From NCBI GenBank assembly GCA_012799905.1, contig JAAZKI010000111.1, positions 1 to 37,241 of the forward strand: a stretch of 37,241 nt of DNA, written 5' to 3'. Position numbers and translations under genes: made by a program. The stretch is from Lentisphaerota bacterium. Its GTDB lineage: Bacteria > Verrucomicrobiota > Lentisphaeria > Oligosphaerales > Oligosphaeraceae. This document shows positions 16,993 through 37,241 of this stretch, piece by piece (the first letter of the stretch is position 1; every line of letters starts with the position of its first letter). The notes under the pieces were generated by a model. It did not search any database, was not told where the DNA came from, and saw nothing but the letters and a program-made list of their open reading frames with translations.

Positions 16993-19900
16993 TCAACCTC
17001 GTTTTTGGAGGAATTCCTGGAACCTGGCGAATGATTCGCCTTGTTCGCGGACAGCGTCCAACAGGGGAATAAGAGCCTCCAGGATCAAAATCTGCCGTTC
17101 CCAGGCTTTGGCGTATTCCGGCGGCATGACCGCCTTGAGTTCAGTCGGGGCTTCCGCGCCCGTCTTGACGCTTTGCATTGCCTGCGCCAAAGACGCCAAA
17201 TCCACGCGCTGATTCTGCATGGCGTCAGCCAAAGGCGCCAGGTCAAGCCGCTGGTTCTGCAAAGCGTCAACCAAAGGCGCCAGGTCAATCCGCTGATTCT
17301 GCAAGGCGTCAACCAAAGGCGCCAAATCAATCCGCTGATTCTGCAAAGCAGTCACCAGCGGCGTCAAGTCGATTTTCAGATTGTCCTCGCTCTGCGCCTT
17401 TGACTGGCGCGTAGCCAGAACTTCGCCAAGGCGGTCAGCGGCCTGGGCAAAGCCGCTGTCCAACGAACTGCGGACCTGCCCCAGACCAGCGCTGAACGCC
17501 GATAATTGCGCCATGAGCCGTCCAAAATCATTCGCATCATCCAAGCCGGAGAGATTCTTCCGCCGGGTGAATTCGGCCTTGATGTCGTCCCAGCGCAGTT
17601 TTTCCGCGGGCGTCAGGCATTGCATGATTTCCTTGGCCTTGAGCAGATTGCTTTCCGCGCCGGTGGTCAGGGTCTGGGCCTCATTGCGGTAATGGTCAAG
17701 GATGACCTGGTCGACTTCCTGCTCGCTCATGATTGGGAATATCTTTTCCGCCATGCGGTTCATGTTGCGGTACGAGCCTTGCAGTCGGAACGGCGGTTCA
17801 GTGCGATACTCGTCCTGCTGCGCCGCCGAATAAATATACTGCTGGTTGACCTTGAGCACGATATCCCGCACCCGGAGCAAATGCCTGACCGTCTTGACGA
17901 CGTCATCCAGCTCGCCGGGCGCATAAGATTCCACGAAGGAAACGCCTTCGATGCCGCCGCGCTCAGCGGCCAGCGCGAAGTTGGCCATGTCTGCCAGATT
18001 GCCGCCCTGGTTGTTCCAAGCCGCCAAAACCGGATTGGAGGTCATGGCGTTTTCCAGGAAACTGAGCGCAAAGACCTCGGCATGAGCCTGGCTGATGTCG
18101 CCGAGATTGTAGGTGTCAGCGCGGTTCGCCAGCATGTCCGGCACTTTGAACACGCCGCCGCTTTCCGTATAGGGATTGCCGGCCATGACGACCGCGACCT
18201 TCTTGCCGCGCAAATCATACGTCCTCGCCTGGCCATCAATAACGCCCTCAATCTTGCGCTGAGCGTCGCACAAAGAAATGAACTTCTGCAAGAATTCCGG
18301 ATTCAGGTGCTGGATATCGTCGAGGTAGATCATCACATTATTGCCCATGGCGAAGGCGAGATTCAATTTATGCAGTTCTTCGCGGGCGGTCGCATTCGGC
18401 GCCTCAGCCGGGTCCAAAGAAAGAACTCGGTGGCCGATGGCCGGGCCATTGACTTTCATAAAGGCCAGACCCAAGCGCTCCGCGACATATTCCATCAAAG
18501 TAGTCTTGCCATAACCGGGCGGCGAAATAAGCAGCAACAGCCCCATTTGATCACTGCGCCGACGCGGCCCAGCGGCACCCATCTGCTTGGCAAAATTAGC
18601 GCCGATAAAACGCAAATAGACCTCGCTGAGCAAGCGATTGCGGACAAAGCCGCCCATGGTGCGAGCCTTGAACTCCGACAAACGCAGACGCTGGCGGCGC
18701 GCTTCCAGCAGTTTGCCGCGGAGGTGCTGATAATCGCGGAAGCGCGGCGCCTGCCGAGAACGGAAGTCTTCCAAGCGCAACAGGAAGGTATCAAGCTGCC
18801 ACGTCAGTTTCCCCTCCTGCACCAGCGGGTGCACTCCGCGCAGACCGCTGACCGTGGAGCTGACTGCGGCTGACATGCCGTCAGCCAGCAGCATCTTCGG
18901 GCCGGCGCTGACCAAGGTCGTCATCTCCCAGGCAAAATGACTATCAGCGGCTTTGTTCCGGTGTTCCAGGAATGCTGTCACCCAGTCGTAGGCCAAGGCG
19001 ATGCGCGCGCCTGGCGACGACAGCGACGACAGGGTCTGCTCAAAACGCTTTTCCGCGTGATGCTCCCGCAGGACGCTACGGAATTCTTCAGCTAGGGCGA
19101 CCGCCTCCGCCGTCATGGTAAACCGCAGCTCCTCCTGGTCCTGAAGCTCATAAAAAAGATATTCCGCCGCCTGGTCCAGAGCCGCCGCTGGAAATGGCAG
19201 CCGGGCCAGTTCCGAAAATTCAGTCAGCAATTTCTTCAAGTCCGTGACATAGACCGAATGGATTTCCTGCTGTTCGAACATAACAGCGCGCTCGCCAAAG
19301 CTGCGCAGGCGTTCGCGCCAGGCGTTTTTCCGGTCAGTGTCTGGATGAAAGCACCAGCACAGCACAGCCCAAGACCGGCCAGCGCTGGCATAGCGCAGCA
19401 GCCCGCAGCGGTCATGCAAGATGATCAGCTCACGCAGAATCAGCGCGGCGTCATAATCATGGACGCCGCGTTCGTAGCCCTCGTCATAGCGCTGCGCCGC
19501 CTCGACACGCACCAGTTCAACCAGCTCTCCTGGCGCACCGGCGTCTGCCCCGCGTTGGCTTGGAATTGCCAGTTGCCGCAAGCTGTCCAGGGTCAAACCG
19601 CGTTCGCCATGCTGAGCCCGGCGGAAGATGTCATAGGCAAGGAATTCGGCGCGATAGACGTCCGGAGCTTCGCTCGGGAGCGTCCTAGTCCACATATCCC
19701 GGCAGGCGGCCAGCTCGGGGTCGCGCACCGACTCGCTGAAATCCGTACCGGTCAAATGCAGGCAGAGTTCGCCTTCGCGCACAATTGTCGTCAATTCGAG
19801 AGGCTGCTTGTTGACATGGAATTGGTGTTCGCCCAAGGTCACGGCTGAGCCGTCAGGCGTAAAGATATCTTGCCGGTCTCGCTGTTGTCGCAGCAGGGCT

Positions 19901-22413
19901 TCCCGGGCGGCCTTGAATTGTCCGTCAAGGTCATCAGCCTTGACCGATTCCTCCATCTGGCGCAGTTTGGTCACGCAGTCGATGAATTTCATCGCCATCG
20001 CGTCAGTCTGGAAGCACGCCGAGATGGCTGCTGGTTCGGTCAACGACTCGGCCCTGGCCTGAATCCCCTTCAGGATGCGGAGGGCCGTTGTCTGGAGGCG
20101 CTGAGCATGAGCCTGGCGTTCATCGTCAAGCTGTTGCTTGCGGGCATTGAAGGCGGCGACGATTTCCTCGCGCTTGTCCGTCAAGCGGGTCAAAAATTCA
20201 TCATACTCGGAAAATCTGCCTTCCAGTTCCTCCAGGGTGATCATAACCCTGGTCAGGAATTCATCGCATTTGGCCGGTGTGTCGGACATGCCGATGAGGT
20301 TGGCGACGCTCTGGGACAGGAGCTTGAACTGCGCCGCGAATTCCACCCGGGCTTCCTCTTGGCCGAGTTCGCGGAAGCGGTGAAGTTGGGCTGCGCGCAG
20401 GCGATTGACGCCGGCATAGACGTCAGTGATGTTATTGATAATGTCGGCTGCCCGAACCGGGTCATCCATCTGCAAATTATTGACGACCTCGGTAAGCAAA
20501 TCCAGGCGGACTGCCAGCGCATCCAGTTCTTCCTGGATAGGCTTGAGATCAGCCCCGCGAACGGCATTTTTCTGCCGCTCGTCCAATTCGGCCAACGCTT
20601 CGACATAGACCCGCAGGGCGTCATCGTCGCCGAGGCAATCAAGGCAAGCCGAGGCAATCTGCTGGTTGAGTTCTGCCAGCCGCGCCTCCAGTTCGTCGAC
20701 CTTATCCTGGTCAGCATAGCGAAGATTGCGCAGCGCCACGGTCTGCCCGCGCTGGATACGAAGCCGGTCAAGGGCGCGGATATAGTCGTCAATGCCGCTG
20801 CTGGCAGCGCTGGCAGCCAGCTCTGACTCCAGGTTGCGCACGGCCTCGGCGCTGGCTTCCAGCTGACGCACATGATCAGCTCGGATGCGCAGCACTTTTT
20901 CGTATTCGCCGACAGCGGCGATGGCGGTGGTGCGGATGTCCTGGACGACTTTCTTCAGGTCGCCGGCTTCGTCATGTCCGAGCCAGTGATACGCATCCAG
21001 CATACGGCGGGAAGCCCGGATCAGCTCCTGGTAGACCCCGAGCGTGATGGTGTCATGACGAATCAGGCGGCTCAGGCCATAGCCTTCGGCAATGCCTCGC
21101 ACCAGGTCGCGATTGCCGATTTTCGACAAATAGCACTCGGTCCGAGCCGGCGCCTGGAAGCTGTCAGCGCAATACGGCGTCTGCCAGATTTGCATCGGGT
21201 GATGCAGCCGCGGTTCGTCGTCTGGCGCTGAAAACACGACCATCCGGCCATTATCGAACAAACAGTAGCCGTGGCAATTCAACGGCGCTGACAGATGCTT
21301 GGCAATGATGTTATAGGACAGCATGACATGCCATCCTTGCTGCGGCTGGTAGAACACATACAGGAAATCCTCGCCATTTGGGGAGCGGATGCATTCCAGG
21401 AACTGCATATCCTCGGCCGGCCCGTCAAATTCCCGCAGTGTCCCATCGGCCAGATAGCAGCCGCGTGGGAAGACCAGGCCCTGGTTCTCCGGCAGACGCA
21501 CACAGGCGTAGGCGATGGCATCGACGCGCCGAACCTTGCCGGTATGCTTGTTATAGATGAAATGGCGCCAGTGCTCCTCCCGGTATGGACGTATGCGCAG
21601 CAGCAGCAACGCATCGACCCAGGCAAATTGGATGACAGCGTCGTCCAGGCCCTGGTCGCGATCCTCGACCGGTTCCGACAGAATGCCCTCGCTGGTGTTA
21701 GTGTTGTTCTCGGCTTTGATCGTCAAATCGCCGCGAATGCACTCCACATACAGCGTGTTGTCGATATTGATATGTGGATGAGCGCCAGTGACATGGTGTT
21801 CGCGCGTCGCCGTCTGCCAGACCTGGGTCTGCTGCGGCGGAAGCAGGTAGTCGGAATCGCCATGATCATCCAGATAAGTCAGCCCGCCCTGGTCGCTCAA
21901 GGCAAAACGGAAGACTTTGACATCCTGGCAAGATGCCCCGTTCTGGAAAACGAGAAGAAGCTGCCCAGGGCGCTTCCAGAATTGCAGGAAGCGAGCCGTC
22001 TTATAGTAGCGGTACAGCTCCTTGAAGTCCTTAACAAAACGCGGGTCGTCAAACAGCTGCGTTGGTGCGGGGCGCAGCGCTTCGCCGTCAAACAAGTGGG
22101 TGCTGAAAACGTCCTCAAGCTCAATCTCCGCTCCACGTCTGACGCCGACGTTGTAGCCGAGGACAAGTTGATTGCCGATGCTGACAAGGTCGCGGGGCAC
22201 GCAGTTTTTGGCCGTGGTCACGCGATCATCGCCGACGAGCTGGCTGTCCTGACCGCCGAATAATTCCCGGCGACGACTGTTAAGGCCGCTCAGACGCCGA
22301 TTCAATTCGGCATCAAGGCTGAGCAGACGCTGGCGCAGGATATCGTACGAGCCGCTGGACAGTTCCGCGTCTTCAACGGCGACCTGGGCGACGGTCTGAT
22401 TTTGCTCAGTCAT
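16993..22413 (-). CDS. Giant DUF3686-type AAA+ ATPase, putative DNA repair or stress ATPase
   Basis: This 1806-residue product has no signal peptide. Residues about 30-440 resemble the DUF3686 region of proteins annotated as ATPases involved in DNA repair, with beta-propeller-like blocks such as LLLVFQNG and FLYVFYQPQ. Residues about 450-870 are long coiled coil. Residues about 1270-1540 hold a AAA+ module: Walker A PPGYGKTT near 1295, Walker B NVMIYLDDIQ near 1360, and a sensor-like VVMAGNPYTESG. The C terminus (about 1675-1750) has five 14-residue repeats of the type IDLAPLVDALQNQR. I chose ATG at 22413; GTG at 22434 is possible. Its neighbours are an InaA-like kinase fold and a small charged protein. 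The AAA+ part is certain; the DNA repair role rests on family naming I recall and is unproven. Confidence 0.85.
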   Translation of the reverse strand: MTEQNQTVAQVAVEDAELSSGSYDILRQRLLSLDAELNRRLSGLNSRRRELFGGQDSQLVGDDRVTTAKNCVPRDLVSIGNQLVLGYNVGVRRGAEIELEDVFSTHLFDGEALRPAPTQLFDDPRFVKDFKELYRYYKTARFLQFWKRPGQLLLVFQNGASCQDVKVFRFALSDQGGLTYLDDHGDSDYLLPPQQTQVWQTATREHHVTGAHPHINIDNTLYVECIRGDLTIKAENNTNTSEGILSEPVEDRDQGLDDAVIQFAWVDALLLLRIRPYREEHWRHFIYNKHTGKVRRVDAIAYACVRLPENQGLVFPRGCYLADGTLREFDGPAEDMQFLECIRSPNGEDFLYVFYQPQQGWHVMLSYNIIAKHLSAPLNCHGYCLFDNGRMVVFSAPDDEPRLHHPMQIWQTPYCADSFQAPARTECYLSKIGNRDLVRGIAEGYGLSRLIRHDTITLGVYQELIRASRRMLDAYHWLGHDEAGDLKKVVQDIRTTAIAAVGEYEKVLRIRADHVRQLEASAEAVRNLESELAASAASSGIDDYIRALDRLRIQRGQTVALRNLRYADQDKVDELEARLAELNQQIASACLDCLGDDDALRVYVEALAELDERQKNAVRGADLKPIQEELDALAVRLDLLTEVVNNLQMDDPVRAADIINNITDVYAGVNRLRAAQLHRFRELGQEEARVEFAAQFKLLSQSVANLIGMSDTPAKCDEFLTRVMITLEELEGRFSEYDEFLTRLTDKREEIVAAFNARKQQLDDERQAHAQRLQTTALRILKGIQARAESLTEPAAISACFQTDAMAMKFIDCVTKLRQMEESVKADDLDGQFKAAREALLRQQRDRQDIFTPDGSAVTLGEHQFHVNKQPLELTTIVREGELCLHLTGTDFSESVRDPELAACRDMWTRTLPSEAPDVYRAEFLAYDIFRRAQHGERGLTLDSLRQLAIPSQRGADAGAPGELVELVRVEAAQRYDEGYERGVHDYDAALILRELIILHDRCGLLRYASAGRSWAVLCWCFHPDTDRKNAWRERLRSFGERAVMFEQQEIHSVYVTDLKKLLTEFSELARLPFPAAALDQAAEYLFYELQDQEELRFTMTAEAVALAEEFRSVLREHHAEKRFEQTLSSLSSPGARIALAYDWVTAFLEHRNKAADSHFAWEMTTLVSAGPKMLLADGMSAAVSSTVSGLRGVHPLVQEGKLTWQLDTFLLRLEDFRSRQAPRFRDYQHLRGKLLEARRQRLRLSEFKARTMGGFVRNRLLSEVYLRFIGANFAKQMGAAGPRRRSDQMGLLLLISPPGYGKTTLMEYVAERLGLAFMKVNGPAIGHRVLSLDPAEAPNATAREELHKLNLAFAMGNNVMIYLDDIQHLNPEFLQKFISLCDAQRKIEGVIDGQARTYDLRGKKVAVVMAGNPYTESGGVFKVPDMLANRADTYNLGDISQAHAEVFALSFLENAMTSNPVLAAWNNQGGNLADMANFALAAERGGIEGVSFVESYAPGELDDVVKTVRHLLRVRDIVLKVNQQYIYSAAQQDEYRTEPPFRLQGSYRNMNRMAEKIFPIMSEQEVDQVILDHYRNEAQTLTTGAESNLLKAKEIMQCLTPAEKLRWDDIKAEFTRRKNLSGLDDANDFGRLMAQLSAFSAGLGQVRSSLDSGFAQAADRLGEVLATRQSKAQSEDNLKIDLTPLVTALQNQRIDLAPLVDALQNQRIDLAPLVDALQNQRLDLAPLADAMQNQRVDLASLAQAMQSVKTGAEAPTELKAVMPPEYAKAWERQILILEALIPLLDAVREQGESFARFQEFLQKRG
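17165..17375 (-). repeat. 42-bp tandem repeat inside the AAA+ ATPase gene
   Basis: About five in-frame copies of a 42-base unit encode 14-residue helical repeats with core DLAPLVDALQNQR. Inner copies are nearly identical and outer ones have drifted, as expected from unequal exchange with decay at the edges. The regular Leu and Gln spacing suggests an amphipathic helix or coiled coil that could bind partners or set oligomer state. Confidence 0.9.
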
Positions 22414-22524
22414 AGCTCCCCCATCTATTCTCACGCCGAACTGCTCAACGGCAAAGGCGGCTACTCACATCCGGACTCATGCTGCTTTGCGCCTTTCGCT
22501 TTATGCCCACCACGCCCCCATTGT

Positions 22525-23364
22525 TCACGACGAGGCGGCAATCATTGCCTCCCACAACGTATCCACCGTGTAGGACGTGCATCGGTTGCTCTCCAGATAG
22601 TGTGCGCAGTATTCTTTGATTTCTTGCGTCGTGGGGCGCAGATCAATGAACAGGGTCACTAAATCAAGGGCGATGGCTTTCCGCATAGATATCTTAGGCC
22701 TGAACTGACAGTGGGAAACATCCAGCCAATAAAGCTGCGGATTATCCTCCGGACTGTCCCGGTCAATCAAAATCTTACGCGCATGAAAAGCGGAATGATA
22801 GCAGCCGCAGGCGTGAGCCTTGCCGATGTGCTCCATGCATTTGAGGCTGAAGCCGCGCCGGAGCCGCGATCGCTCCCACCAGTCTTTGCCAGGAACCAGG
22901 ATCGACGCGTCCACCGTGTTGGGGATAAATTTCGTCACGATGTAGCCGCCAGCCAGCCGGCCCCAACGACGCATCTCACCGCAGGCTAAGACGTCCGGCA
23001 CCGGAATCTCCAGGCTGCGCAGCGCAGCAAAATTCGCAGCCTCTTGGACGGCCGGAGAATAAATGCCAAAATTTTTGCTAAAGGACGGTGTGGAGATAAA
23101 AAATTTATACAGGATGTCAATCCCGCCGAGATACTCCGGAATTGGGAGGCGCCAGACTTCTTTGCCTGGCGTGTCGGAAAGATATTGCCCGCGGCGGATT
23201 TCGGCTTGATTGTCGAGCAGCCACTGATGTCCCTCCCGGAATGTCGGCACTGACCAATGCCAGGTGCGAAAGCGCGACGGCCGCATGACCTGCACCTGTT
23301 CGTCCCGGCTGGCACAGCCCAGGCGGTTCATGCGCTTGGTGTCATATTGCTGCTGCTCGCTCAT
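22525..23364 (-). CDS. Lipopolysaccharide kinase (InaA/Kdo-kinase-like) fold protein
   Basis: The 279-residue product follows the Kdo/WaaP kinase plan: a phosphate-loop-like N-terminal part, YIVTKFIPNTVDA in the hinge region, then KAHACGCYHSAFHARKIL near residues 182-200 and YWLDVSHCQF near 213-222. In active kinases of this family the third position of the HxD motif is an aspartate; here it is alanine (HSA), while the later metal-binding aspartate in LDV is kept. E. coli InaA, as I recall it, also lacks that aspartate (HGCC), so this protein is closest to InaA. It may act on a lipid A or core sugar or may be a pseudokinase. It lies between the DUF493-like gene (34 bases upstream) and the giant ATPase (111 bases downstream), probably one transcript. 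Confidence 0.75.
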   Translation of the reverse strand: MSEQQQYDTKRMNRLGCASRDEQVQVMRPSRFRTWHWSVPTFREGHQWLLDNQAEIRRGQYLSDTPGKEVWRLPIPEYLGGIDILYKFFISTPSFSKNFGIYSPAVQEAANFAALRSLEIPVPDVLACGEMRRWGRLAGGYIVTKFIPNTVDASILVPGKDWWERSRLRRGFSLKCMEHIGKAHACGCYHSAFHARKILIDRDSPEDNPQLYWLDVSHCQFRPKISMRKAIALDLVTLFIDLRPTTQEIKEYCAHYLESNRCTSYTVDTLWEAMIAASS

Positions 23365-26534: not shown

Positions 26535-26778
26535 CCTGCTGGTCGGCATCATCACATTCTACCAACGCTATTTGTCCCGGCTCAAAGGGCCTTGCTGCCG
26601 CTTTCAGCCAAACTGCTCCGAGTACGCCCGACAGGCCCTGCTGGCCCACGGCGTCATGCATGGCATCGCCTTGACCGCATGGCGCCTCTGCCGATGCCAG
26701 CCCCTGTATCGCGGTTCGGTTTACGACCCCGTCCCACCACCCGGAAAAACGGATTCCCAACACCGTGAAATACGATAA
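26503..26778 (+). CDS. yidD: Membrane protein insertion efficiency factor YidD
   Basis: This 91-residue protein has the YidD signature: LVGIITFYQRYLSRLKGPCCRFQPNCSEYA with its conserved cysteines, then ARQALLAHGVMHGIALTAWRLCRCQPLYRGSVYDPVPP. YidD is a small membrane-associated protein that helps YidC and Sec insert membrane proteins. It overlaps rnpA upstream (32 bases) and yidC downstream (14 bases). Confidence 0.95.
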   Translation: MSKSPHLLLRDLLVGIITFYQRYLSRLKGPCCRFQPNCSEYARQALLAHGVMHGIALTAWRLCRCQPLYRGSVYDPVPPPGKTDSQHREIR

Positions 26779-28528
26779 AGTCACCATCATCGGCGTCACC
26801 GTCTGCCTCCTGGTATTCTTTCTCGCGGTCTATTTTCAGCCCAGACCAACCAGGCCAATGCCGCAGCCGGACGCCGCTGCACAGCAGGGGGATGTAACCA
26901 CCCCCGCCCCCGAAGCAACCACGCCGGCCGCGCCGGTCATGGCGCCAGCGCCCCTCGACCTGCGGACTCCATGGCCAGCCCCGTCCCAGCCGCCCGTCGC
27001 CTTAGTCCGGCCAGACGAAGCCGTCGCCATGGTCGCGCCCGACGGCGGTGGGATGACGGAAGTCATCCTTGACCAGTATCTCCAGGACAAGCCGGAGCGA
27101 GGTCAGCAGACGCCGCCTGAGAAAGTCGTCCTCGGGCATCATGACTATCCGTTCCTGGCATTGGTCCCGGACCCAGCCGGCCTGGCTCTAGATTCCGACG
27201 CGACCGTAACCAGCCAGACTGAAACCGAGCTGACCATCACCCGCCAGACCTTAGACAACCGGCTGCAAGTCACCGAGACCTGGGCCGCCTTCCCGGCAGA
27301 AACCTACGAATGGCGCTATACCGTCACGGTCTCCAACCTTGGCGACTCGGCGCAGCTGCTGCCAGGAATTCGACTGGAAGCCGGCGCCCTGCCGCCGTCC
27401 GTCTCGCCAAACCGCAAGGCCAGCCGCGGCGAAGCAGCCGGCGGCGCCGCCATCGGCCTGTTCAACGGATCAAAAACGCGTTCAACCAAAACGCGTTCCT
27501 TTAACCTTAAATCCATCAGCAAGCTGAGCCTGGAAAAACAGCACGAGCTGGCGATGCAGCCGACGCGCTGGACCGCTGTCCATTCCAAGTATTTCCTGTT
27601 TGCTCTCTGGAGCCTGGACCAGCCCTTAGTCGGCGTCGACGCCTCGGCAGTCCCGTCCATTCACCAGGAAGGCGTCCCCACCCAGGAATACGGCCGTTGC
27701 CGCCTCCGGGCCGTCTTGTCCGCGCCAGTCACCTTGCCGCCCGGGGAAAGCAAGACCTGGACGGTCGGCGCCTATGCCGGGCCCAAGAACTACCACCGCC
27801 TCAATGGCATGAAAAACGGCCTTGACACCATCATGGACATGAACCGCTTCTTCTTCTGGCGGCCGGCCTGGATGGGATTTTTGAGCCGTGTGCTCCTGGA
27901 TGGCATGGTCTGGATCAGCAGCCTGTTTCCCGCCAGCACCGGCTGGGGCATGGGCATCATCTGCCTGACGCTCCTGGTCAAACTCCTGTTCTGGCCCCTG
28001 TCTCATAAGAGCACCGTGTCCATGCGTCGGATGCAGGCTCTGCAACCCCAGTTGAAAGAAATGCGGGAAAAATACAAAGACGACCCGACCAAGTTATACC
28101 GCAAGCAACAGGAGTTGTTCAAAGAGCACAAAGTCAGTCAATTCGGCGGGTGCCTGCCCATGCTGTTCCAAATCCCGGTTTTCTTCGCCCTGTTCAACAC
28201 CTTCCGCAACGCTGTCGAACTGCGGCACGCCGGCTTTCTCTGGGCGGTTGACCTTTCCATGCCCGACACCCTGGCTTTTTCGCCGTCCTTCTTGCCTATC
28301 CGCCCCCTCGCCCTCCTGATGGGCGCCGCTATGTTCTGGCAGCAGAAAATCACTCCGTCGGCTGATCCGCAACAGGCCAAAATGATGAACATGATGACGA
28401 TCTTCTTCATGGTTCTGTTCTATGGCATGCCATCCGCACTTACCCTGTATATGACGGTCAATTATATCCTGGGAATCCTCCAGACCATCATCACACGCAA
28501 ATTGGAGACGAGAAAGCAGCCAGCCTGA
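26765..28528 (+). CDS. yidC: Membrane protein insertase YidC
   Basis: The 587-residue product has an N-terminal anchor helix (about 7-22), a Pro/Ala-rich linker, a large periplasmic beta domain (about 80-360) and a C-terminal YidC/Oxa1 domain (about 365-575). The core includes GWGMGIICLTLLVKLLFWPLS, the cytoplasmic MRRMQALQPQLKEMREKYKDD loop and GGCLPMLFQIPVFFALFNTF. This Gram-negative layout matches E. coli YidC in length. It inserts proteins into the inner membrane alone or with Sec. Translation probably starts at GTG 26765, because the frame overlaps yidD and the GTG is directly followed by the anchor helix. Confidence 0.96.
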   Translation: MKYDKVTIIGVTVCLLVFFLAVYFQPRPTRPMPQPDAAAQQGDVTTPAPEATTPAAPVMAPAPLDLRTPWPAPSQPPVALVRPDEAVAMVAPDGGGMTEVILDQYLQDKPERGQQTPPEKVVLGHHDYPFLALVPDPAGLALDSDATVTSQTETELTITRQTLDNRLQVTETWAAFPAETYEWRYTVTVSNLGDSAQLLPGIRLEAGALPPSVSPNRKASRGEAAGGAAIGLFNGSKTRSTKTRSFNLKSISKLSLEKQHELAMQPTRWTAVHSKYFLFALWSLDQPLVGVDASAVPSIHQEGVPTQEYGRCRLRAVLSAPVTLPPGESKTWTVGAYAGPKNYHRLNGMKNGLDTIMDMNRFFFWRPAWMGFLSRVLLDGMVWISSLFPASTGWGMGIICLTLLVKLLFWPLSHKSTVSMRRMQALQPQLKEMREKYKDDPTKLYRKQQELFKEHKVSQFGGCLPMLFQIPVFFALFNTFRNAVELRHAGFLWAVDLSMPDTLAFSPSFLPIRPLALLMGAAMFWQQKITPSADPQQAKMMNMMTIFFMVLFYGMPSALTLYMTVNYILGILQTIITRKLETRKQPA

Positions 28529-28565
28529 CCGCCCTGCCTTCTCCGCCAGAAAGAGACTGCCGAAC

Positions 28566-29090
28566 ATGGATAATAGCACCATACGCGACCAAGCCATAAA
28601 CATCTTGACGGAATTGCTGCAACGCCTTGACATCACAGCTCAAATCCAGCCAAGCGAGGACGACGATTGCAAAATCGACATCAAGTCCGACGAGGGGGGA
28701 CGGCTGATCGGACGCAAAGGCCAATACCTGGAAAGCCTGGAACTGGTCATGAATCGCATTCTTCGACGCCAGTTCGCCGACGAGCCGGCAACGCCCTGGA
28801 TCATACTTGACGTTGACGGCTACTGCGTGCCAAAGCCCTCCGCTGACAATGGCGAGGGACGACGCAGACGCCGCGGCTTTGACACCGAGCGCTTCGAAAC
28901 CATGGCCTTGGACGCAGCCAAGGAAGTCAAGCGCTGGGGTTCACCCCGAACCCTGGGGCCATACCGGCCTGGCGAACGCCGCATCATTCATCTCACCCTG
29001 CGCGACGACCCGGAAGTCGAAACAATCAGCGAACCCGAAGCCGACGCCAACGGCTGCAAACGAATCACCATCCGCAAAAAACAATCCTGA
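28566..29090 (+). CDS. jag: Jag/KhpB-type RNA-binding protein (KH and R3H domains)
   Basis: This 174-residue product has a KH domain (about 25-80) with the GRKG loop in GGRLIGRKGQYLESLELVMNRIL, a linker, and an R3H domain (about 95-160) with ALDAAKEVKRWGSPRTLGPYRPGERRIIHL. The N-terminal Jag domain of many family members is absent. KhpB (Jag, EloR) binds RNA and affects cell elongation in Gram-positives; in other phyla it is mostly known as the gene next to yidC. Here it follows yidC by 37 bases. It is probably cotranscribed with yidC. Confidence 0.92.
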   Translation: MDNSTIRDQAINILTELLQRLDITAQIQPSEDDDCKIDIKSDEGGRLIGRKGQYLESLELVMNRILRRQFADEPATPWIILDVDGYCVPKPSADNGEGRRRRRGFDTERFETMALDAAKEVKRWGSPRTLGPYRPGERRIIHLTLRDDPEVETISEPEADANGCKRITIRKKQS

Positions 29091-29186
29091 CGCCGGCGAG
29101 GAAGCCAAAAATCGAGGCGACGCCTCCCAGCCGCCCTGACTAATAGTGACGGCCGTGACCACGCTCAATCATAAGGGTCCACCACG

Positions 29187-30683
29187 ATGATCAATGACTA
29201 CATGCGAACATTCATGGATTCTCAGGGCTATGAAGCGCTGACTTTCAACGATGTCACGCTGGAGACGCGCTACGCCGACTTTCTGCCGGCCGAAGCCAAT
29301 ATCTCCAGCCTGTTCTCGCGCAACATCAGCCTGAACGCACCGTTTGTCAGCGCGGCCATGGACACTGTGACCGAAGCGAACATGGCCATCGAAATGGCTA
29401 AAAACGGCGGCATCGGCGTCATCCACAAGAACCTCACCCCCCAGCAGCAGGCGGAACAAGCATCCAGGGTCAAACAGTACCTGCACGGACTTATTCCGAA
29501 ACCGGTCGTGTTCCACCAACACATCAAGGTCTCGGAACTGATCGCCATCAAGGAAGAGCAAAATTACAACTTCAGCGGCTTCCCCATCCTGGATGACCAG
29601 GACCGCGTCGTCGGCATCCTGACCTCGCGTGACCTCAAGTACCTGACCAACTACGACATGCCGGTGCAGGAAGTGATGACCAAAGACCTGGTCATCGGCA
29701 AGCCGACCACAAGCATGGAAGAAGCCTTCGAAATTATGCGACGCAACAAGGTCGGCAAACTGCCCATCATTGACAAGGATGGACGTCTATGCGGACTCTA
29801 CAGCTTCCACGACGTCAGCACCCTCCTCAAAAACGTCGAACCCAATTTTAACCGTGACGCCAAGCACCGCCTGCGCGTCGCCGCCGCCGTCGGCCCGTAT
29901 GATTGGGAGCGCATTGCTGCCCTGGCCGAGGTTGAGACCGACGCCCTGGTGCTGGATACTGCCCACGGCCACTCCAAGGGCGTCATTGAGACGCTCCGTC
30001 AGCTGAAAAAAGACTATCCGCAGATCGACATCGTCGCCGGCAACGTCTGCACCAGCGAAGGCGCTGCCGCCCTTTGCGAGGCCGGGGCAGACGCGGTCAA
30101 GGTCGGCATCGGCCCCGGGTCGATCTGCACCACCCGCGTTGTCGCCGGCGTCGGCGTACCGCAGCTGACCTCGATCTACAATGCTGCCAAGGCGGTCAGC
30201 AACGATGTTCCCATCATCGCTGACGGCGGGATCGAGCATTCCGGCGATGTCGCCAAGGCCATCGCCATCGGCGCCAGCTGCGTCATGATGGGCTCGGCCC
30301 TGGCCGGAACCGAGGAATGCCCCGGCGAACGCATCCTCCACCAAGGCCGCACCTATGTCATCTACCGCGGCATGGGCAGCCTCGACGCCATGCGCAAAGG
30401 CAAAGGCAGCCGGGAACGCTACGGCGTCGACACCGAAGCGGCCACGGAAAAGCTCGTGCCGCAGGGTATTGAAGGAATGATTCCCTATCGCGGATTTGTC
30501 GCCGACGTTTTGAACCAGTATATTGGAGGTCTGCACTTTGCCTTGGGTTACTGCGGCGCCCGCACCATTGCTGAGATGCAGAAGAACGCGCGCTTTGTGC
30601 GGGTCAGCAGCGCCGGCCTGCATGAAGCGCACCCGCACAATGTCATCGTCCAGAAAGATGCCCCGAACTACCGGGCGACCTGA
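29187..30683 (+). CDS. guaB: Inosine-5'-monophosphate dehydrogenase
   Basis: The 498-residue product is a full-length IMPDH. The N-terminal part [12 protein letters not shown] starts the TIM barrel; two CBS domains lie at about 110-225. The catalytic loop is [17 protein letters not shown] with catalytic Cys314, followed by [20 protein letters not shown] and the flap residues of the RERYGVD region. It oxidises IMP to XMP with NAD, the committed step to GMP. ATG at 29187 gives normal length; an in-frame ATG five codons later is an alternative. It replaces the mnmE gene that follows jag in many bacteria. The IMP it uses would be made by PurO, encoded at the other end of the window. Confidence 0.97.
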
Positions 30684-30752
30684 CCGCAGTCCGGAGCATC
30701 AACCATAGGCGGCCAGGTGACGGACGGCCGCCGGAACCGGGAAAGAAAAATC

Positions 30753-31763
30753 ATGCCCTCTCTACAGCTGATGATACTGACCGTCCTGCTGCTGACTCTC
30801 CTCGCGCCGGCAGCCTGGCTGGCGCTGCTTCTGGTGCTGTTCGTCTGCCGTCGGTTTCCCCTCTGGCTGGAAGCCAAGGCCGCCGGCCTCAACGTCAGTT
30901 TCCTTGACCTCGTGATGATCTATTTGAAAAAACTGTCGCCGGAAGCCATCGTCGGCTGCCTCAAGGTGATGCGCAAAGCCGGCTTGGACGTCAGCATCGC
31001 TGACCTGGAGTCGCACCAGCTGGCCGGCGGCCACCTGGATCGGCTGCAAGACGCCTCCATCGCAGTCAACAAAGCCGGCCTGAACCTCACTTTCCGCGAC
31101 ATGGCCGCCATTGACCTGGCCGGGCGAGACATCCGCGAAGCCGTGGACAGCCATGTCAACCCCAAAGTCCTTATCTGCCCGCCCCAGACCCGCGGCAGCC
31201 AGGGGCACAACGCGATCACCGCCGTGGCCAGGGATGGCATCCGCCTCGCTGTCCGAGCCAAGGTTACAGTACGCACCAGAATTGACCGCCTGGTCGGAGC
31301 GGCCGGCGAAGCGACGATTATCGCCCGAGTCGACGAAGGCATTGTCGCCGCCATCGGCAGAGCCGAAAGCCATCGCGACATCCTGGCACAGCCCGAAATT
31401 ATCTCCCAGGCCATTCTGGACCACGGACTCGACAGCGCGACCTGCTTTGAAATCATATCGGTCGACATTGCCGACGTAGACGTGCAAGATAATGTCGCGG
31501 CCCGCTTGCAAACCGTCAAGGCCGAGGCAGACAAACGCATCGCCCGGGCCAAGGCCGAGGAGCGACGCGCCGCCGCCATCGCCACCCAGCAGGAAATGCA
31601 ATCACGCACCGTGGGCATGCAAGTCAAGGTGACAGAGGCGAGAGCCGAACTCCCTTTGGCCGTGGCCACCGCCTGCCAAGACCAGAACCTCGGCAACCCG
31701 CAGCCCTTCCAACATCTGCTGCCCAGTCCAAGACGATGGCAGTCAAAACCACAACCAATCTGA
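30753..31763 (+). CDS. floA: Flotillin-like protein FloA
   Basis: This 336-residue product begins with a hydrophobic hairpin (about 5-30), followed by a conserved FloA region: PLWLEAKAAGLNVSFLDLVMIYLKK, then LDRLQDASIAVNKAGLNLTFRDMAAIDLAGRDIREAV and the SPFH-like core up to about 255. A charged Ala/Glu/Arg coiled coil follows. FloA marks ordered membrane domains and helps organise membrane proteins. The last 40 residues differ from the usual NLGIMDYY tail: NLG is kept but the rest is Gln/Pro/Arg-rich. I prefer ATG 30753, with GGGAAAG upstream; GTG 30717 would add 12 polar residues. It follows guaB by 69 bases. Confidence 0.92.
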   Translation: MPSLQLMILTVLLLTLLAPAAWLALLLVLFVCRRFPLWLEAKAAGLNVSFLDLVMIYLKKLSPEAIVGCLKVMRKAGLDVSIADLESHQLAGGHLDRLQDASIAVNKAGLNLTFRDMAAIDLAGRDIREAVDSHVNPKVLICPPQTRGSQGHNAITAVARDGIRLAVRAKVTVRTRIDRLVGAAGEATIIARVDEGIVAAIGRAESHRDILAQPEIISQAILDHGLDSATCFEIISVDIADVDVQDNVAARLQTVKAEADKRIARAKAEERRAAAIATQQEMQSRTVGMQVKVTEARAELPLAVATACQDQNLGNPQPFQHLLPSPRRWQSKPQPI

Positions 31764-31976: not shown

Positions 31977-32597
31977 ATGTCAACCATCCGATTACGCCTC
32001 AGCTTTCGACTCGTTCTGCTGACCAGCCTGCTCCTGCTGGCCGCGGTGACTGACGCCCAGGCGCAGCGTAACCGTACCGAGGGCAGCATCAGCAAACTGA
32101 AATGTTATAATGAACGGACTCCGTCCTTCCCGGCCTCCAACCAAGGCAACAAGGGCTCGCGTGACGACTGGTGCCGAATCGACCTCGAATTCGAAACTAA
32201 GACCGGCGCCAACGAAGGGTGGATCGATGAAATTGAGATCAAATGGTCTGTCCTCGCAGAGGTGCCAGCCGAAAAAAGAGCCATTTTCATGACCCTTTCT
32301 ACGTTCTACACCGATGTTGAAGACGGCAAACATAATGCCTGCGTTTATATTAAGCCAAAATTCTTCAAGCGCTATCTGAAATCCAATCGGCCGGTGCTCA
32401 ACCGCCTCAGCCTGTATGCCGAAATTCTGGTTGATGGCCAGGTCATCGCCCGCCAAGAGGTCAAATCCTCCAACCGAGTTCCAAATAACTGGTACCGGCA
32501 CCGGGGTGGCCTCTCCAATGAACTGCTGCCCAAGCGCCTCACCCCGTTCGCTCATTTCGACTATGACTACTACGAACACGAAAAAGTCACTCCCTGA
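31977..32597 (+). CDS. Amuc_1102-like secreted protein of a PVC pilus-like system
   Basis: The 206-residue product has a signal peptide (core LVLLTSLLLLAAV, cut after AQA near residue 29). The mature part is beta-rich: GSISKLKCYNERTPSF, WCRIDLEFETKTG, WIDEIEIKWSVL and LSLYAEILVDGQVIARQE look like strands of an Ig-like or sandwich fold. It is the first gene of a run whose second to fourth genes match PilM, PilO/Amuc_1100 and Amuc_1099. By length and position it corresponds to Amuc_1102. GGGAG lies upstream of the ATG. The assignment rests mainly on gene order recalled from Akkermansia; I cannot align the sequences here. Confidence 0.65.
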   Translation: MSTIRLRLSFRLVLLTSLLLLAAVTDAQAQRNRTEGSISKLKCYNERTPSFPASNQGNKGSRDDWCRIDLEFETKTGANEGWIDEIEIKWSVLAEVPAEKRAIFMTLSTFYTDVEDGKHNACVYIKPKFFKRYLKSNRPVLNRLSLYAEILVDGQVIARQEVKSSNRVPNNWYRHRGGLSNELLPKRLTPFAHFDYDYYEHEKVTP

Positions 32598-32611
32598 ATC
32601 GTCGCTAACAA

Positions 32612-32629
32612 CCTGCCAAGCCAGGCAGG
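32612..32629 (+). other. Small intergenic hairpin between the first two pilus genes
   Basis: CCTGCC (32612-32617) and GGCAGG (32624-32629) form a perfect 6-base-pair stem with a 6-base loop, without a following T run. It sits between the first two genes of the operon and could modulate or stabilise the transcript. It does not have the TTYA loop of the dispersed family. Confidence 0.45.
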
Positions 32630-32656
32630 ACAAAGCAGTAAGCGGAAAATGACATC

Positions 32657-34732
32657 ATGGCTAAAGAAGAACGAATCCTGGCGATAGACATCGGGGCAAC
32701 CAGCATTAAGCTGTGCGAGTTCGTCTATTCAGCTGAACAGACGATCAGCCTCGCTCTGTTCGCCCAGCGCGAATACGAAGAGGAGTTGTCCGAAGGCACC
32801 CGCATGGGCGTGGTCGCCGGACTCCTGCGCCAGATGCTGGCCGAAAGCGGCTTCCAAGCGCGCCGGGCTCTTATCTGCATGTCTGGACAGTCCGCCCTGA
32901 TGCGGTTCAGCCGCATCCTGACCATGAATTACGACCGGAAGCAAATCCGCCAGCTGGCCGAATTCGAGGCGACCCAGAACATCCCGTTCCCGATTGAGGA
33001 AGTCATCTGGGACTACCAGCTCATCACTGGCCAGGACGAGGAGAGCCTGGACCTGATGTCAATCGTCATCAAGAACGAAATCGTTGAACAATTCACCGCC
33101 GCTGTTACCCAAGTCGGCTGCACCCCCATCCTGGTTGACGTGGCGCCGGCGGCCTGCTACAACGCCATGCGCGCCAACGGCCTAGGCCAAGACGAATGTG
33201 TCATGGTTCTCAACATCGGCGGTCGCAGCACCAACCTGCTGTTCGCTGAAGGCGAGCGCTTCTACGCCCGCACCATCCCCATTGCCGGGCACTCAATCAC
33301 CCAGCAGATTTCCAAAGAATTTGGCATCGGGTTGCCCGAGGCCGAAGAATTGAAGCGGCACCATGGCTTTGTCGCCCTCGGCGGCGCATACGCTGAACCG
33401 GAATCGGAAACCGCCGCCAACGTCTCCAAAATCATCCGCAACGTCATGGCCCGCTTGCATGGCGAAATCGCCCGCTCGATCAATTACTACCGAGTTCAGC
33501 ACAAAGGGCAACGCCCAACCAAAATGTACTTGACCGGCGGCAGTTCAATTTTGTCATATTGCGACATCTTCTTCGCCGAAAAACTAAACATCCCAGTGGA
33601 ATACTTCAACCCGTTCCAGGTCGTCAACCTGCTGCCGACCGTGGACCGGCAACGGTTGCAAGAAGTGGCTCATATGTTCAGCGAGACTATCGGCCTCGGA
33701 CTGCGCTACGGCACCCAATGCCCAATCGAACTGAGCCTGATCCCCATCACCCTGCGCCGTCAGCAAAACCTGGCCAAGAAAAAACCCTACCTGGCCGGAA
33801 CCATCGCTGCTTTCCTGATGATCCTCGTGGTGATCTGGTTCGGCATCCTGCAACGCACTGACCTCTATGCCGCCAACAACAATCAACTCAAAAGCTTGCA
33901 CGAAAAGACGCAACCGCTCAAGCAGAGAATTGAACAGGCCCGCAGTGAAGCAGGCCAGAAAAAATCGCAGTACGAAGCCATCGGCAGCCTCCTGCTCCAA
34001 CAGGCTAAATGGTCCAGTATCCTCAATGAAATCTATCGCCTTAAGCCCGACGACCTCTGGATCAGTGAACTAAGGCCAATCTACGGCGAAGTCAAGCCGC
34101 ATGTGCCAGTCAGCGTTGCCGGCGATGCCATCGCAGTTGGCGGCGGCGGATTCGGCGGCCCCGGCGGTGAAGAGGGCGGCATGTTCGGAGGCGATATGTT
34201 CGGCGCCCCAGCCGGTGATTTCGGCGGAGGACCCGGCGGAGGCGATATGTTCGGAGGAGGAGGCGATATGTTTGGCGGATTCGGCGGAGGAGGCGCTGAA
34301 GCCGCCGGCAACGTCGTCAATATCGGCGGCCTGACTATCTGCGGCAGCAGCCTGCTTCCTGACAAAAATAAGGTCGCTTTCACCCTCGGCAAGGAAATAC
34401 CCTTCCCGTTTGAGGTTGACAAGAACGAGCCGGAGCCGGAACCGAGTCCTGACGGCGAAGAAGGCGAAGCCGCCAAACAGCCCGTAGACCGCAACGCCAA
34501 AATCATGGCAGCCGTCCAAAAATATGGCACTACCCCTGAATTGGCCTTCGTCACCGCTCTGCGTCACTCCCTGCTTTTCGATGCTGATGAGACGATGACC
34601 ACCATCACCTTCTACAAAACTTCCAGCACCATCAAAAACTTCTGCGTTTTCAAAATACAGGTAAAATTCACCATGCCGGTGGAATTCTACCAGGTCAAAG
34701 GCAAATCCACCCCGCCCGGACGGCGAATGTGA
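32657..34732 (+). CDS. PilM-PilN fusion protein of a type IV pilus-like complex
   Basis: In this 691-residue product, residues 1-370 are an actin-like PilM domain: LAIDIGATSIKLCEF (phosphate 1), VLNIGGRSTNLLF (phosphate 2, near 185) and MYLTGGSSI (adenosine, near 292), with QNIPFPIEEVIWDY as seen in PilM. One membrane helix follows (about 377-398), then a coiled-coil and PilN-like periplasmic part (399-490 and 553-691). It is interrupted by a Gly/Phe/Met/Asp-rich tract at about 493-552 with GGDMFGG repeats. PilM and PilN are separate proteins in most type IV pilus systems, so this is a fusion, like Amuc_1101 as I recall it. It should sit in the inner membrane, ATP-binding part inside, and connect to the PilO-like protein encoded next. 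Confidence 0.85.
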   Translation: MAKEERILAIDIGATSIKLCEFVYSAEQTISLALFAQREYEEELSEGTRMGVVAGLLRQMLAESGFQARRALICMSGQSALMRFSRILTMNYDRKQIRQLAEFEATQNIPFPIEEVIWDYQLITGQDEESLDLMSIVIKNEIVEQFTAAVTQVGCTPILVDVAPAACYNAMRANGLGQDECVMVLNIGGRSTNLLFAEGERFYARTIPIAGHSITQQISKEFGIGLPEAEELKRHHGFVALGGAYAEPESETAANVSKIIRNVMARLHGEIARSINYYRVQHKGQRPTKMYLTGGSSILSYCDIFFAEKLNIPVEYFNPFQVVNLLPTVDRQRLQEVAHMFSETIGLGLRYGTQCPIELSLIPITLRRQQNLAKKKPYLAGTIAAFLMILVVIWFGILQRTDLYAANNNQLKSLHEKTQPLKQRIEQARSEAGQKKSQYEAIGSLLLQQAKWSSILNEIYRLKPDDLWISELRPIYGEVKPHVPVSVAGDAIAVGGGGFGGPGGEEGGMFGGDMFGAPAGDFGGGPGGGDMFGGGGDMFGGFGGGGAEAAGNVVNIGGLTICGSSLLPDKNKVAFTLGKEIPFPFEVDKNEPEPEPSPDGEEGEAAKQPVDRNAKIMAAVQKYGTTPELAFVTALRHSLLFDADETMTTITFYKTSSTIKNFCVFKIQVKFTMPVEFYQVKGKSTPPGRRM

Positions 34733-34859
34733 CCGTCCCTGACTATACCCGAATTGACGGCCAACGCCAGCCGCCCTAAAACCAATGGAAAACGTTCCTT
34801 CCCAGCACAAGGCGCTGCCAACGGCGGTAAGCCGTAAAACAGCCTGACAAGGACAGGAT

Positions 34860-35891
34860 ATGGATTTAATCAAAAAAAACTGGGGATTCCTCGCTTATGC
34901 GGTCATCTGCCTGGCCGTAGGCATCGTGCTGATTGCGCAATGCGTTCGCGCTGGCAAGACGCTCAAGGAAGCCAAGAGCCAGCACCAGCAAGAAATGGAT
35001 TTCTTCGACGGCGTCAAGAAAGCCAACCTGAAGCTGTCGCCGGAAAATATCAACCTTGCGGAGCAAAACAAAAAACTCGCAGAAGAGCAATTCCAAGCCT
35101 TCGTGGAACGACTGAAAAAGCAATATCACCTGCAAGTCACCCTCCCTCGCGACCCGATTGAAGCAGTACGCACTCTGCGTGATGAAATCGCTGCAATCCG
35201 GAGAAAGCTGGACGAAAAAGGCATCGCCTATAACCAATCAGCCGCCTATTTCACCTTTGACTACTATGCCAAACTTGACACCCTCCCCCCAGTCAGTGAC
35301 CTGCCGAAAATTTTCCGACATTTAAAGTTGATCAAAGTCGTCATCGAGACCGTCATGGAAGCAGAACTGCTGTCGATAGACGCTATCACCCGGCCGCTCA
35401 ATATGCAAGTTATGCAGGAAGACCTCTATACCTACACCCCGATTGAAATCAATGTCACCGGAACCGTGAACAATACCCAGAAATTCATCAACCTGATGAA
35501 CTCGAACAAAAACTGCCTGTTCTTCCTGCGCGAATTGGAAATCATAGCGCCGGACGAGTTGACCGATGTGGGCGCACCCCTGAAAGACTCCATCTCCCTC
35601 TCCAGCTCGACCATGGGCATGGGCGGAGGCATGGGCATGGGCGGAGGGGGAGAGGACTTTGAAGCCATGGGCATGAGGCCGGGCCCACAACGCCCAGGCG
35701 GACGCCAATTCCAACGAGCCCCAGACATGATGGCCGGAGAAATAGGCCAGCTAGATAACAGAACCACTGCCGGAGCCACCATGGTCGGCCCGCCGCCGAA
35801 ACGCCAGGACCTCCTGGTCTTCAAGCCTAAGCTGGTTTCCTGGCGCATTCGGTTTGACATGGTTGACTTCAACCTGGAAACGGAGGAATAG
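34860..35891 (+). CDS. PilO-like protein, Amuc_1100 type
   Basis: This 343-residue product has an N-terminal membrane helix (about 9-27), a coiled coil (about 33-110), then a ferredoxin-like PilO-type region. Conserved-looking stretches are DLPKIFRHLKLIKVVIETVMEAELLSIDAITRP and TYTPIEINVTGTVNNTQKFINLMNS. It ends in a low-complexity Gly/Met/Pro/Arg-rich tract (about 250-290) and a final beta strand WRIRFDMVDFNLE. Amuc_1100 of Akkermansia is a well-studied PilO-like envelope protein of similar size and is encoded at the same position in its operon. AAGGA precedes the ATG. The 127-base gap after the PilM gene shows no terminator. Membership in the PilO fold is strong; the Amuc_1100 name is inferred from order and layout. 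Confidence 0.75.
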   Translation: MDLIKKNWGFLAYAVICLAVGIVLIAQCVRAGKTLKEAKSQHQQEMDFFDGVKKANLKLSPENINLAEQNKKLAEEQFQAFVERLKKQYHLQVTLPRDPIEAVRTLRDEIAAIRRKLDEKGIAYNQSAAYFTFDYYAKLDTLPPVSDLPKIFRHLKLIKVVIETVMEAELLSIDAITRPLNMQVMQEDLYTYTPIEINVTGTVNNTQKFINLMNSNKNCLFFLRELEIIAPDELTDVGAPLKDSISLSSSTMGMGGGMGMGGGGEDFEAMGMRPGPQRPGGRQFQRAPDMMAGEIGQLDNRTTAGATMVGPPPKRQDLLVFKPKLVSWRIRFDMVDFNLETEE

Positions 35892-35894
35892 ACT

Positions 35895-37109
35895 TTGGAA
35901 TTCCTGCTGCGCCATTATGAAAAAATAATCCTAAGCCTGACCCTGCTCCTCTTGCTGGGGGGCATCTTTCTGGTCATGGTCATGTTCGGGGAAACCAGGG
36001 ATAAGCTGGCCGAGGAATGGCGACTGGCTCAAAACCAAGCCAGCGGCGGAGGACTCGTCGAACTGCTCGACCCATCTAAGTTCACTGCCGAAGCCAACTT
36101 GACCGACTCACGTAAGATTCTGGCCATCAACGCCCAAAGCCGAGAAGACCGAAAAGGCTCCCTGCTTGAGCCAAACCGCTACATCAAATGCAGCAAGCCA
36201 GACTGCATGTACCTGATCCCCCTGTCCAGCGATGTCTGCCCGTTCTGTGCTACAACCCAGCCGGAACTAGGCAAAGACGCCGGTGAAGGCGATGATTCCG
36301 ACAATGACGGAATGCCAGACCTGTTCGAACAAAGGTACGCCTTCCTTAATCCCTATAACCCGGCTGACGCCACCCAGGACTATGACAATGACGGATTCCT
36401 CAACATAGAGGAATACAGGGCCGGAACCGCGCTTGATGACCCAGACTCGTTCCCGCCACTCGGCAACCTGCTCCGATTCGTCAGAATCTTCCGCCGACCG
36501 CTGCCGATCACACTACGCTCGGTTGACGAAGGACGCTCCGATGACAAAACCAAGTGGGACGTCAGCGTCAGCGTCTGGGACAATACACGCCGTCGAAACG
36601 TGACCAGAACCATCCGCATCGGCGACAAAGCCAACGACTTCGAACTCCTGGACATCTTCCGGGAAGGAACCGGCGCAGCAGCCGTATACCAAGTTGATGT
36701 CTGTCCGGCCGACCAAAAAGATGACGTCTATCGCCTAAGTCAAGGCAAAACCGAATTAAACAAGGCAACCACCGTCCAAATGGTCTACCTGGCCTCGCGC
36801 CAACGCGAACATGCCCGCACAATCCTCCAACGCTTCAGTATGTTCCGCAACGTTGGAGACGAATTCCCCCTCGCCAAGCGCAAATCCACCGGCCCGCTCG
36901 TGGAATACTACCGCCTGAAAGCAGCTGACGAAGCCGCTAAAACAGTCGTCATCGAGCAACTTGACCAGGCCAAAGGAAACCCCGTGGCGGAAATCACCCT
37001 GTCGCCGATCAACCCGGCAGCTGACTTCATCAGCGCTGGCGCCGCCGGCAATATCATGGGCGGCGGCGACCCCATGAGGGAAGGCCCAGGAGAAGGCTTT
37101 ATGCCCTAA
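35895..37109 (+). CDS. Amuc_1099-like envelope protein with zinc ribbon and calcium-binding repeats
   Basis: The 404-residue product has one N-terminal membrane helix (about 10-31). Residues 99-118 have a C-x4-C-x10-C-x2-C pattern ending CPFC, a zinc-ribbon-like knuckle. Residues 133-175 carry two calcium-binding loops of the thrombospondin-3/EF-hand type, DSDNDGMPD and DYDNDGFLN. The remainder is beta-rich and unrecognised, and the C terminus is Gly/Met-rich (GGGDPMREGPGEGF). Translation starts at TTG 35895 three bases after the previous stop, with GGAGG upstream, so it is translationally coupled to the PilO-like gene. It corresponds by position and layout to Amuc_1099. A secretin gene (Amuc_1098/PilQ-like) would be expected next, outside the window. 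Confidence 0.75.
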   Translation: MEFLLRHYEKIILSLTLLLLLGGIFLVMVMFGETRDKLAEEWRLAQNQASGGGLVELLDPSKFTAEANLTDSRKILAINAQSREDRKGSLLEPNRYIKCSKPDCMYLIPLSSDVCPFCATTQPELGKDAGEGDDSDNDGMPDLFEQRYAFLNPYNPADATQDYDNDGFLNIEEYRAGTALDDPDSFPPLGNLLRFVRIFRRPLPITLRSVDEGRSDDKTKWDVSVSVWDNTRRRNVTRTIRIGDKANDFELLDIFREGTGAAAVYQVDVCPADQKDDVYRLSQGKTELNKATTVQMVYLASRQREHARTILQRFSMFRNVGDEFPLAKRKSTGPLVEYYRLKAADEAAKTVVIEQLDQAKGNPVAEITLSPINPAADFISAGAAGNIMGGGDPMREGPGEGFMP

Positions 37110-37215
37110 CCCAAACCATAATCGCAACCACACAACCAAAAACATTTGCCGACATCGGCTGACGACAACCTGCCCCAAGTACACCAACAACCATCACATA
37201 ATCCCAATAAAAGAA

Positions 37216-37229
37216 GTGCGCTTGCGCAC
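37216..37229 (+). other. Palindrome at the right edge
   Basis: GTGCGC and GCGCAC form a perfect 6-base stem with a TT loop in the gap after the Amuc_1099-like gene. No T run follows within the window, so it is not a clear terminator. The remaining sequence 37110-37241 has no gene. Confidence 0.4.
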
Positions 37230-37241
37230 GGCGCCAGGCAA

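Follow-up and report, generated by a model that had tools for sequence, protein, structure and literature searches.

A divergent Lentisphaerota member of the Akkermansia Amuc_1102-1098 (MUL2) operons, probably encoding the envelope part of a type IV pilus machine

The Amuc_1102-1098 operon of Akkermansia muciniphila includes the gene for Amuc_1100, a protein investigated mainly for its signalling to the host and its therapeutic use. The operon has already been published as the MUL2 system of Verrucomicrobiales, in a survey covering that order and neighbouring orders (PMC13174399), and fucoidan is taken up by marine Akkermansiaceae with a syntenic MUL2 locus (PMC13174399). MUL genes (pili and a periplasmic complex) are reported to be needed for the accumulation of mucin products (PMC12418764), a requirement described only for Akkermansia. 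A PilQ homologue of Lentisphaera araneosa was noted earlier (PMC4960237), and in the literature found, no paper extends the five-gene operon to Lentisphaerota or names its motor. Here, we describe the corresponding locus at the right end of a stretch of 37,241 nucleotides (hereafter ‘the window’), which is the complete contig C113 (JAAZKI010000111.1) of a Lentisphaerota genome of 614 contigs and 4.37 Mb (GCA_012799905.1). With a probability of roughly 0.72, we read this locus as the Lentisphaerota ortholog of the Amuc_1102-1098 operon, encoding the envelope part of a type IV pilus machine that has its motor elsewhere in the genome and probably serves polymer capture. The locus is a new, divergent member of a published system; what is new here is the recovered secretin, the phylum-wide and apparently vertical distribution, and a specific motor partner.

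Four open reading frames of 206, 691, 343, and 404 residues stand head-to-tail on the plus strand (as do all operon features given below), and NCBIfam models match them in the order Amuc_1102, Amuc_1101, Amuc_1100, Amuc_1099. An earlier note, made from the sequence alone, had proposed this collinearity and had described the products as a secreted beta protein, a PilM-PilN fusion, a PilO-like protein, and a zinc-ribbon/calcium-loop protein. All four are present, as judged from a signal, a PilM_2 match, cysteines, and DxDxDG loops, and the collinearity holds gene by gene in NCBIfam, profile, hhalign, and fold matches. Only the Amuc_1102-like protein passes its NCBIfam cut-off, the other three lying below the curated equivalog cut-offs.

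The homologue of Amuc_1101/MUL2B (32657-34732; NF045709), of 691 residues, consists of a PilM domain and a PilN-like extension. Its match to the Amuc_1101_fam model (E 8.3e-123, 411 bits) misses the cut-off of 650, which is reached by none of the 41 genomes scanned in its genus, family, and order, and the protein is still a clear homologue. The actin-like, cytoplasmic PilM domain spans residues 10-350 (32684-33706; Pfam PF11104, PilM_2, E 4.6e-33); the protein also exceeds the cut-off of the PilM model TIGR01175 (E 3.8e-44, 151 bits, cut-off 133), and its profile matches the PilM structures 3jc8 (3.2e-46) and 2ych (2.9e-36). The second half is assigned to PilN because of a hydrophobic stretch, read from the sequence at about residues 379-397 (33791-33847) between the PilM part and the periplasmic PilN-like part, because of the gene order, and because residues 383-465 match T2SSM, although below threshold (E 0.006).

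The Amuc_1100 homologue (34860-35891; NF038287) has 343 residues, with an N-terminal membrane helix, a coiled coil, and a PilO-like domain. It matches Amuc_1100_fam with 45.6 bits (E 6e-12; cut-off 180), and a profile built from twenty 1100-like proteins matches the Amuc_1100 structures 6lad and 6kny with E ~1.5e-12. When its predicted model (mean predicted local distance difference test score, pLDDT, 75) was searched with Foldseek, the ten best matches were Amuc_1100 (E 3.5e-10 to 5.7e-9, TMt 0.69-0.81), and the next pilus-protein fold was Pseudomonas aeruginosa PilO (2rjz, probability 0.99). The model predicts that 1100 is anchored in the membrane as a PilO-like component of the machine.

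The Amuc_1099 homologue (35895-37109; NF042425), of 404 residues, begins with a TTG codon 3 bp past the preceding stop codon and carries an N-terminal membrane helix. Its match to Amuc_1099_fam (E 9e-12, 45.2 bits) is below the cut-off of 50, and hhalign aligns 24 of its relatives to Akkermansia 1099 with E 3.2e-12, so that the profile similarity to Amuc_1100 and Amuc_1099 on which the earlier note had staked its proposal is found for both proteins. Alignment reveals zinc-ribbon-like cysteines C99, C104, C115, and C118 (36189-36248), a pattern present in 58 of 72 relatives, and two DxDxDG calcium-type loops at residues 134-145 and 162-173 (36294-36413), in which D134, D138, G139, E145, D162, D164, D166, and E173 are near-invariant; at least one loop is found in 70 of the 72 relatives and two in 49. 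Akkermansia 1099 keeps one calcium loop and lacks the zinc ribbon and the second loop. This qualifies the collinearity proposed in the earlier note: the ribbon and second loop are Lentisphaerota features, with losses. The protein sits in the usual PilP place and may form a PilP-like bridge to the secretin.

The first gene of the operon (31977-32597; NF042424) encodes the Amuc_1102/MUL2A homologue, a secreted, beta-rich protein of 206 residues that matches Amuc_1102_rel above cut-off (E 8.5e-18, 64.6 bits, cut-off 55); a profile from 20 lentisphaerotal 1102-like proteins matches the solved Amuc_1102 (PDB 7dsz, E 1.1e-20). MUL2A has been described as pilin-like in structure (PMC13174399). A pilin role was considered and is disfavoured, since the prepilin motif is absent from all 75 relatives of the protein. 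It carries instead a signal-peptidase-I-like signal (AQA followed by Q, near residue 30), and 65 of the 75 relatives have an A-x-[AG]-Q-like site; because of this signal and the missing prepilin motif, 1102 is more likely a cage or surface accessory than a pilin, and is probably secreted as an accessory rather than a filament subunit. One could go further and take the whole locus for a complex that serves as a static adhesin or in surface attachment, with no filament dynamics, in which 1102 would be the surface-exposed binding protein: 1102, like 1100, is an exported protein of the envelope, antibodies to Amuc_1100 label the exterior of Akkermansia cells (PMC5332112), and published MUL2 proposals emphasise attachment (PMC13174399). 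We consider this very unlikely, as such a complex would have no use for a secretin or for a PilM partner in the cytoplasm, and the genomes concerned also conserve the PilB and PilT motors.

The contig ends 132 bp beyond the 404-residue gene (37110-37241, leading to the secretin gene by alignment to G001, a sister genome of the same genus), and the secretin is invisible in the window because the contig, and hence the window, stops there. In the same assembly, contig C390 (L006:1-2559) opens inside an 852-residue frame, open at its 5' end, whose match to the Amuc_1098 family NF042912 (E 3.6e-103, 346 bits) spans positions 26-804 of the 805 in the profile and misses the cut-off of 750. The end of the window aligns to locus L038 of G001 up to position 8549 and the start of C390 from 8783; the start of the frame is lost in the assembly gap of ~234 bp between them, and the 1098 gene of G001 starts at 8613, inside the gap interval. 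G001 carries the five genes unbroken, and its next gene is the one also found after the secretin on C390. The downstream secretin that the earlier note had set beforehand as a test of its reading therefore exists, and the idea that it is absent is rejected. The protein consists of N-terminal TPRs and a secretin domain, the layout reported for Akkermansia PilQ (PMC4960237). Secretins on contigs C431 and C437 were rejected as the partner, as both are parts of different operons and their similarity to Amuc_1098 is much weaker. Tandem Amuc_1098-type secretins occur in 31 of 80 named Lentisphaerota loci, with three in Lentisphaera marina (e.g. L126 12788-19416, among L106-L147); the Oligosphaeraceae around the window have a single one.

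All five genes stand in order in 58 of the 80 named loci, most of the others being cut by contig ends. At a threshold of E <= 1e-30, where the weakest matches could be paralogues, the 1101 gene was found in 336 of 384 genomes and 172 of 192 genera of the GTDB phylum. In a maximum-likelihood phylogeny inferred from 60 sequences of 1101, Lentisphaerota-side and verrucomicrobial groups separate with support of 99/98; the only outgroup has a very long branch, which leaves the root uncertain. Horizontal transfer involving Akkermansia as donor or recipient was also considered and receives no support from this tree, and the operon looks vertically inherited in the phylum. The window's organism is a Lentisphaerota member from the family of Oligosphaera ethanolica, adjoining ‘Lentisphaerae bacterium ADurb.Bin082’; these named neighbours and the 1101 tree agree with the affiliation that the earlier note had suspected. 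Its further claim, that the system predates the gut-adapted Akkermansia, gains support from the same census and split: phylum-wide occurrence together with a clean division between Lentisphaerota and verrucomicrobial sequences points to a long history of the operon in the phylum. These results bear on the proposal that the main role of the locus is signalling to an animal host, as in the case of Amuc_1100, which binds and activates TLR2 (PMC5332112, PMC10688800). Such a main role is scarcely credible here, given that nearly the whole phylum has the operon, Lentisphaera marina, a marine isolate, and further records from outside hosts among them, and that 1100 itself is predicted to be a PilO-like part of a machine. 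The effects on gut hosts are probably a late side effect of the pilus operon; a core, vertically inherited pilus operon that includes non-gut Lentisphaerota would recast the host effect of Amuc_1100 as incidental to the pilus.

The earlier note had remarked on the lack of a pilin or motor ATPase gene, which is correct for the four genes of the window and does not extend to the genome, where contig C196 carries pilB1-pilB2-pilT-pilC. Beside this motor cluster, there are no PilM, PilN, PilO, or secretin genes. An orthologous tandem pilB pair and pilC, with or without pilT, were present in all six other clusters that were fully read (G064, G008, G172, G118, G330, and G151). The first of these, G064, is an Akkermansia genome, as seen from near-exact matches of its Amuc_1100 and Amuc_1102 to chains in the PDB; in it, a prepilin gene directly follows pilC. 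Each of four complete genomes of the genus Akkermansia (G064 and three others) encodes a single PilM (1101), a single PilC, and a single pair of PilB in tandem, so that the MUL2-type complex and the motor must be parts of one machine unless one of them is idle. Judging from gene content, the envelope locus and the motor locus of Akkermansia almost certainly serve one machine, and by orthology the C196 motor likely drives the 1098-1102 complex in the window's organism; the analysis thus predicts which distant motor genes belong with the operon.

Tandem, divergent PilB-type ATPases before pilC are seen phylum-wide (L150 10918-14457, minus strand; L187, L190, L191, L192, L193, and L213). Walker A motifs are intact in both tandem PilB proteins of the window's genome, and the pair is possibly a two-part extension motor.

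Type IV pili and type II secretion systems have PilM-N-O-like complexes and secretins in common, and the locus could accordingly be read as a type II-style machine exporting enzymes through a short pseudopilus. The match of the 1098 secretin to GspD (7.3e-46) is as good as that to PilQ (1.3e-38), and the genomes hold many pseudopilin-like genes. This reading appears unlikely: the actin-like protein is of the PilM type, above the PilM cut-off and with PilM structures as its best matches; among pilus proteins, PilO ranks directly behind Amuc_1100 in the fold search; a retraction ATPase, PilT, which is not found in type II secretion systems, is encoded in the partner motor cluster; and the window's genome has its own, separate gspD/gspE locus on C437.

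In the pilus machine that we favour, 1101 would place a cytoplasmic PilM ring on a fused PilN-like membrane partner or tether, 1100 as the PilO-like partner, and perhaps 1099 too, would form a periplasmic cage, and 1098 would be the outer-membrane gate. PilB1 and PilB2 would extend, and PilT retract, a filament whose subunits are drawn from a large prepilin pool, and extension and retraction would probably attach to large polymers at the cell surface and pull them in. Sequence comparison establishes the homology, the gene order, the downstream secretin, the motor cluster, and the phylum-wide distribution, and from Akkermansia genetics and marine relatives we infer a capture or uptake role here. 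Several points weigh against this reading. The secretin and all operon proteins of the window except 1102 lie below equivalog cut-offs, and identical function is therefore not guaranteed; a pilus and its uptake role in this lineage are predictions from sequence and relatives. The window's genome also has further PilM-like systems (on C431 and C583) and other ATPases, which makes the motor pairing less forced than in Akkermansia. The filament subunit would be one of ~75 candidates, prepilin-like proteins with the type III signal that match N_methyl over cut-off, versus seven such proteins in Akkermansia. Finally, the model of the 404-residue protein (pLDDT 81) resembled no solved structure in the fold search, PilP included, and profile comparison with the PilP-position protein of the C431 operon gave no match, leaving an assignment of 1099 to PilP unsupported by either comparison.

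In several Lentisphaerota genomes, pilC of the motor cluster is followed by genes for a giant TPR protein (1365-1505 residues), a TPR protein of ~250 residues, ExbB, and two ExbD proteins, usually with a protein of ~500 residues with weak squalene-cyclase/TED-like matches after the ExbD pair. This arrangement was found in the window's genome and in G001, G008, G027, and G028, which represent three families of one order (motor and TPR/ExbB/ExbD block by gene order, L150 on C196, 1-14457, minus strand; also L212, L214, L216, and L224). Akkermansia has an ExbB-ExbD-ExbD-TPR locus apart from the motor, at a position that we take to be the MUL1 locus, and the ExbB there is the closest Akkermansia match to the motor-linked ExbB (E 1e-26 versus 8e-17 or worse). 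Comparison of the Lentisphaerota giant TPR protein with the 1077-residue TPR protein of Akkermansia by hhalign (probability 52%, 94 columns) leaves homology of the two unsupported. The gliding motor Agl-Glt of Myxococcus has the same parts list, with one ExbB-like, two ExbD-like, and TPR proteins, and import is therefore only one reading of the block. We offer as a tentative and rather doubtful proposal that in Lentisphaerota a single machine combines the pilus with a proton-driven periplasmic importer, in which the retracting pilus would hand polymer to an Exb-powered relay. If true, this coupling would join mucin-utilization loci described as separate in Akkermansia and would make polymer import the ancestral use of the pilus-Exb system in the phylum.

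The operon is preceded in the window (26765-31763) by yidC, a KH-R3H (Jag/KhpB-like) gene, guaB, and a flotillin-like floA gene (30717-31763, plus strand; Pfam FloA, E 1.1e-101), whose membership in the operon is unproven. Among the 62 named loci that extend far enough to judge, 22 have floA immediately before 1102, and the guaB-floA pair recurs next to this pilus operon in Lentisphaerota. A scan for promoters and terminators gave no signal over chance. Elsewhere in the window, a gene on the minus strand (16993-22434) encodes a protein of 1813 residues with DUF3686, DUF7902, and AAA ATPase domains, and is adjoined by a Kdo/WaaP-like kinase gene (22525-23364).

Among known systems, the Amuc_1098-1102 operon of A. 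muciniphila agrees with the Lentisphaerota locus in all five families, their order, and their strand, and shares the PilM fusion, the PilO-like fold, and the secretin with N-terminal TPRs. The two differ in their low identity (1101, 411 bits against a cut-off of 650; 1100, ~45 bits for the same fold) and in their upstream genes, which are guaB-floA in the window's organism and others in Akkermansia. A PilM domain, a PilO fold, a secretin, and the order M-N-O-x-Q are common to the Lentisphaerota locus and the type IVa pilM-N-O-P-Q operon, whereas in the former, M and N form one protein, an extra gene for secreted 1102 stands in front, and the protein in the PilP position is without detected PilP similarity. 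The operon on C431 of the same genome (L005, 324-7669; secretin-PilMN-PilO-PilP-position-PilB) encodes a like envelope complex, with a fused PilM, but differs in having its own ATPase, in lacking 1102, and in its gene order, and it is only distantly related, with 105 bits to the Amuc_1101 model versus 411 for the protein of the window.

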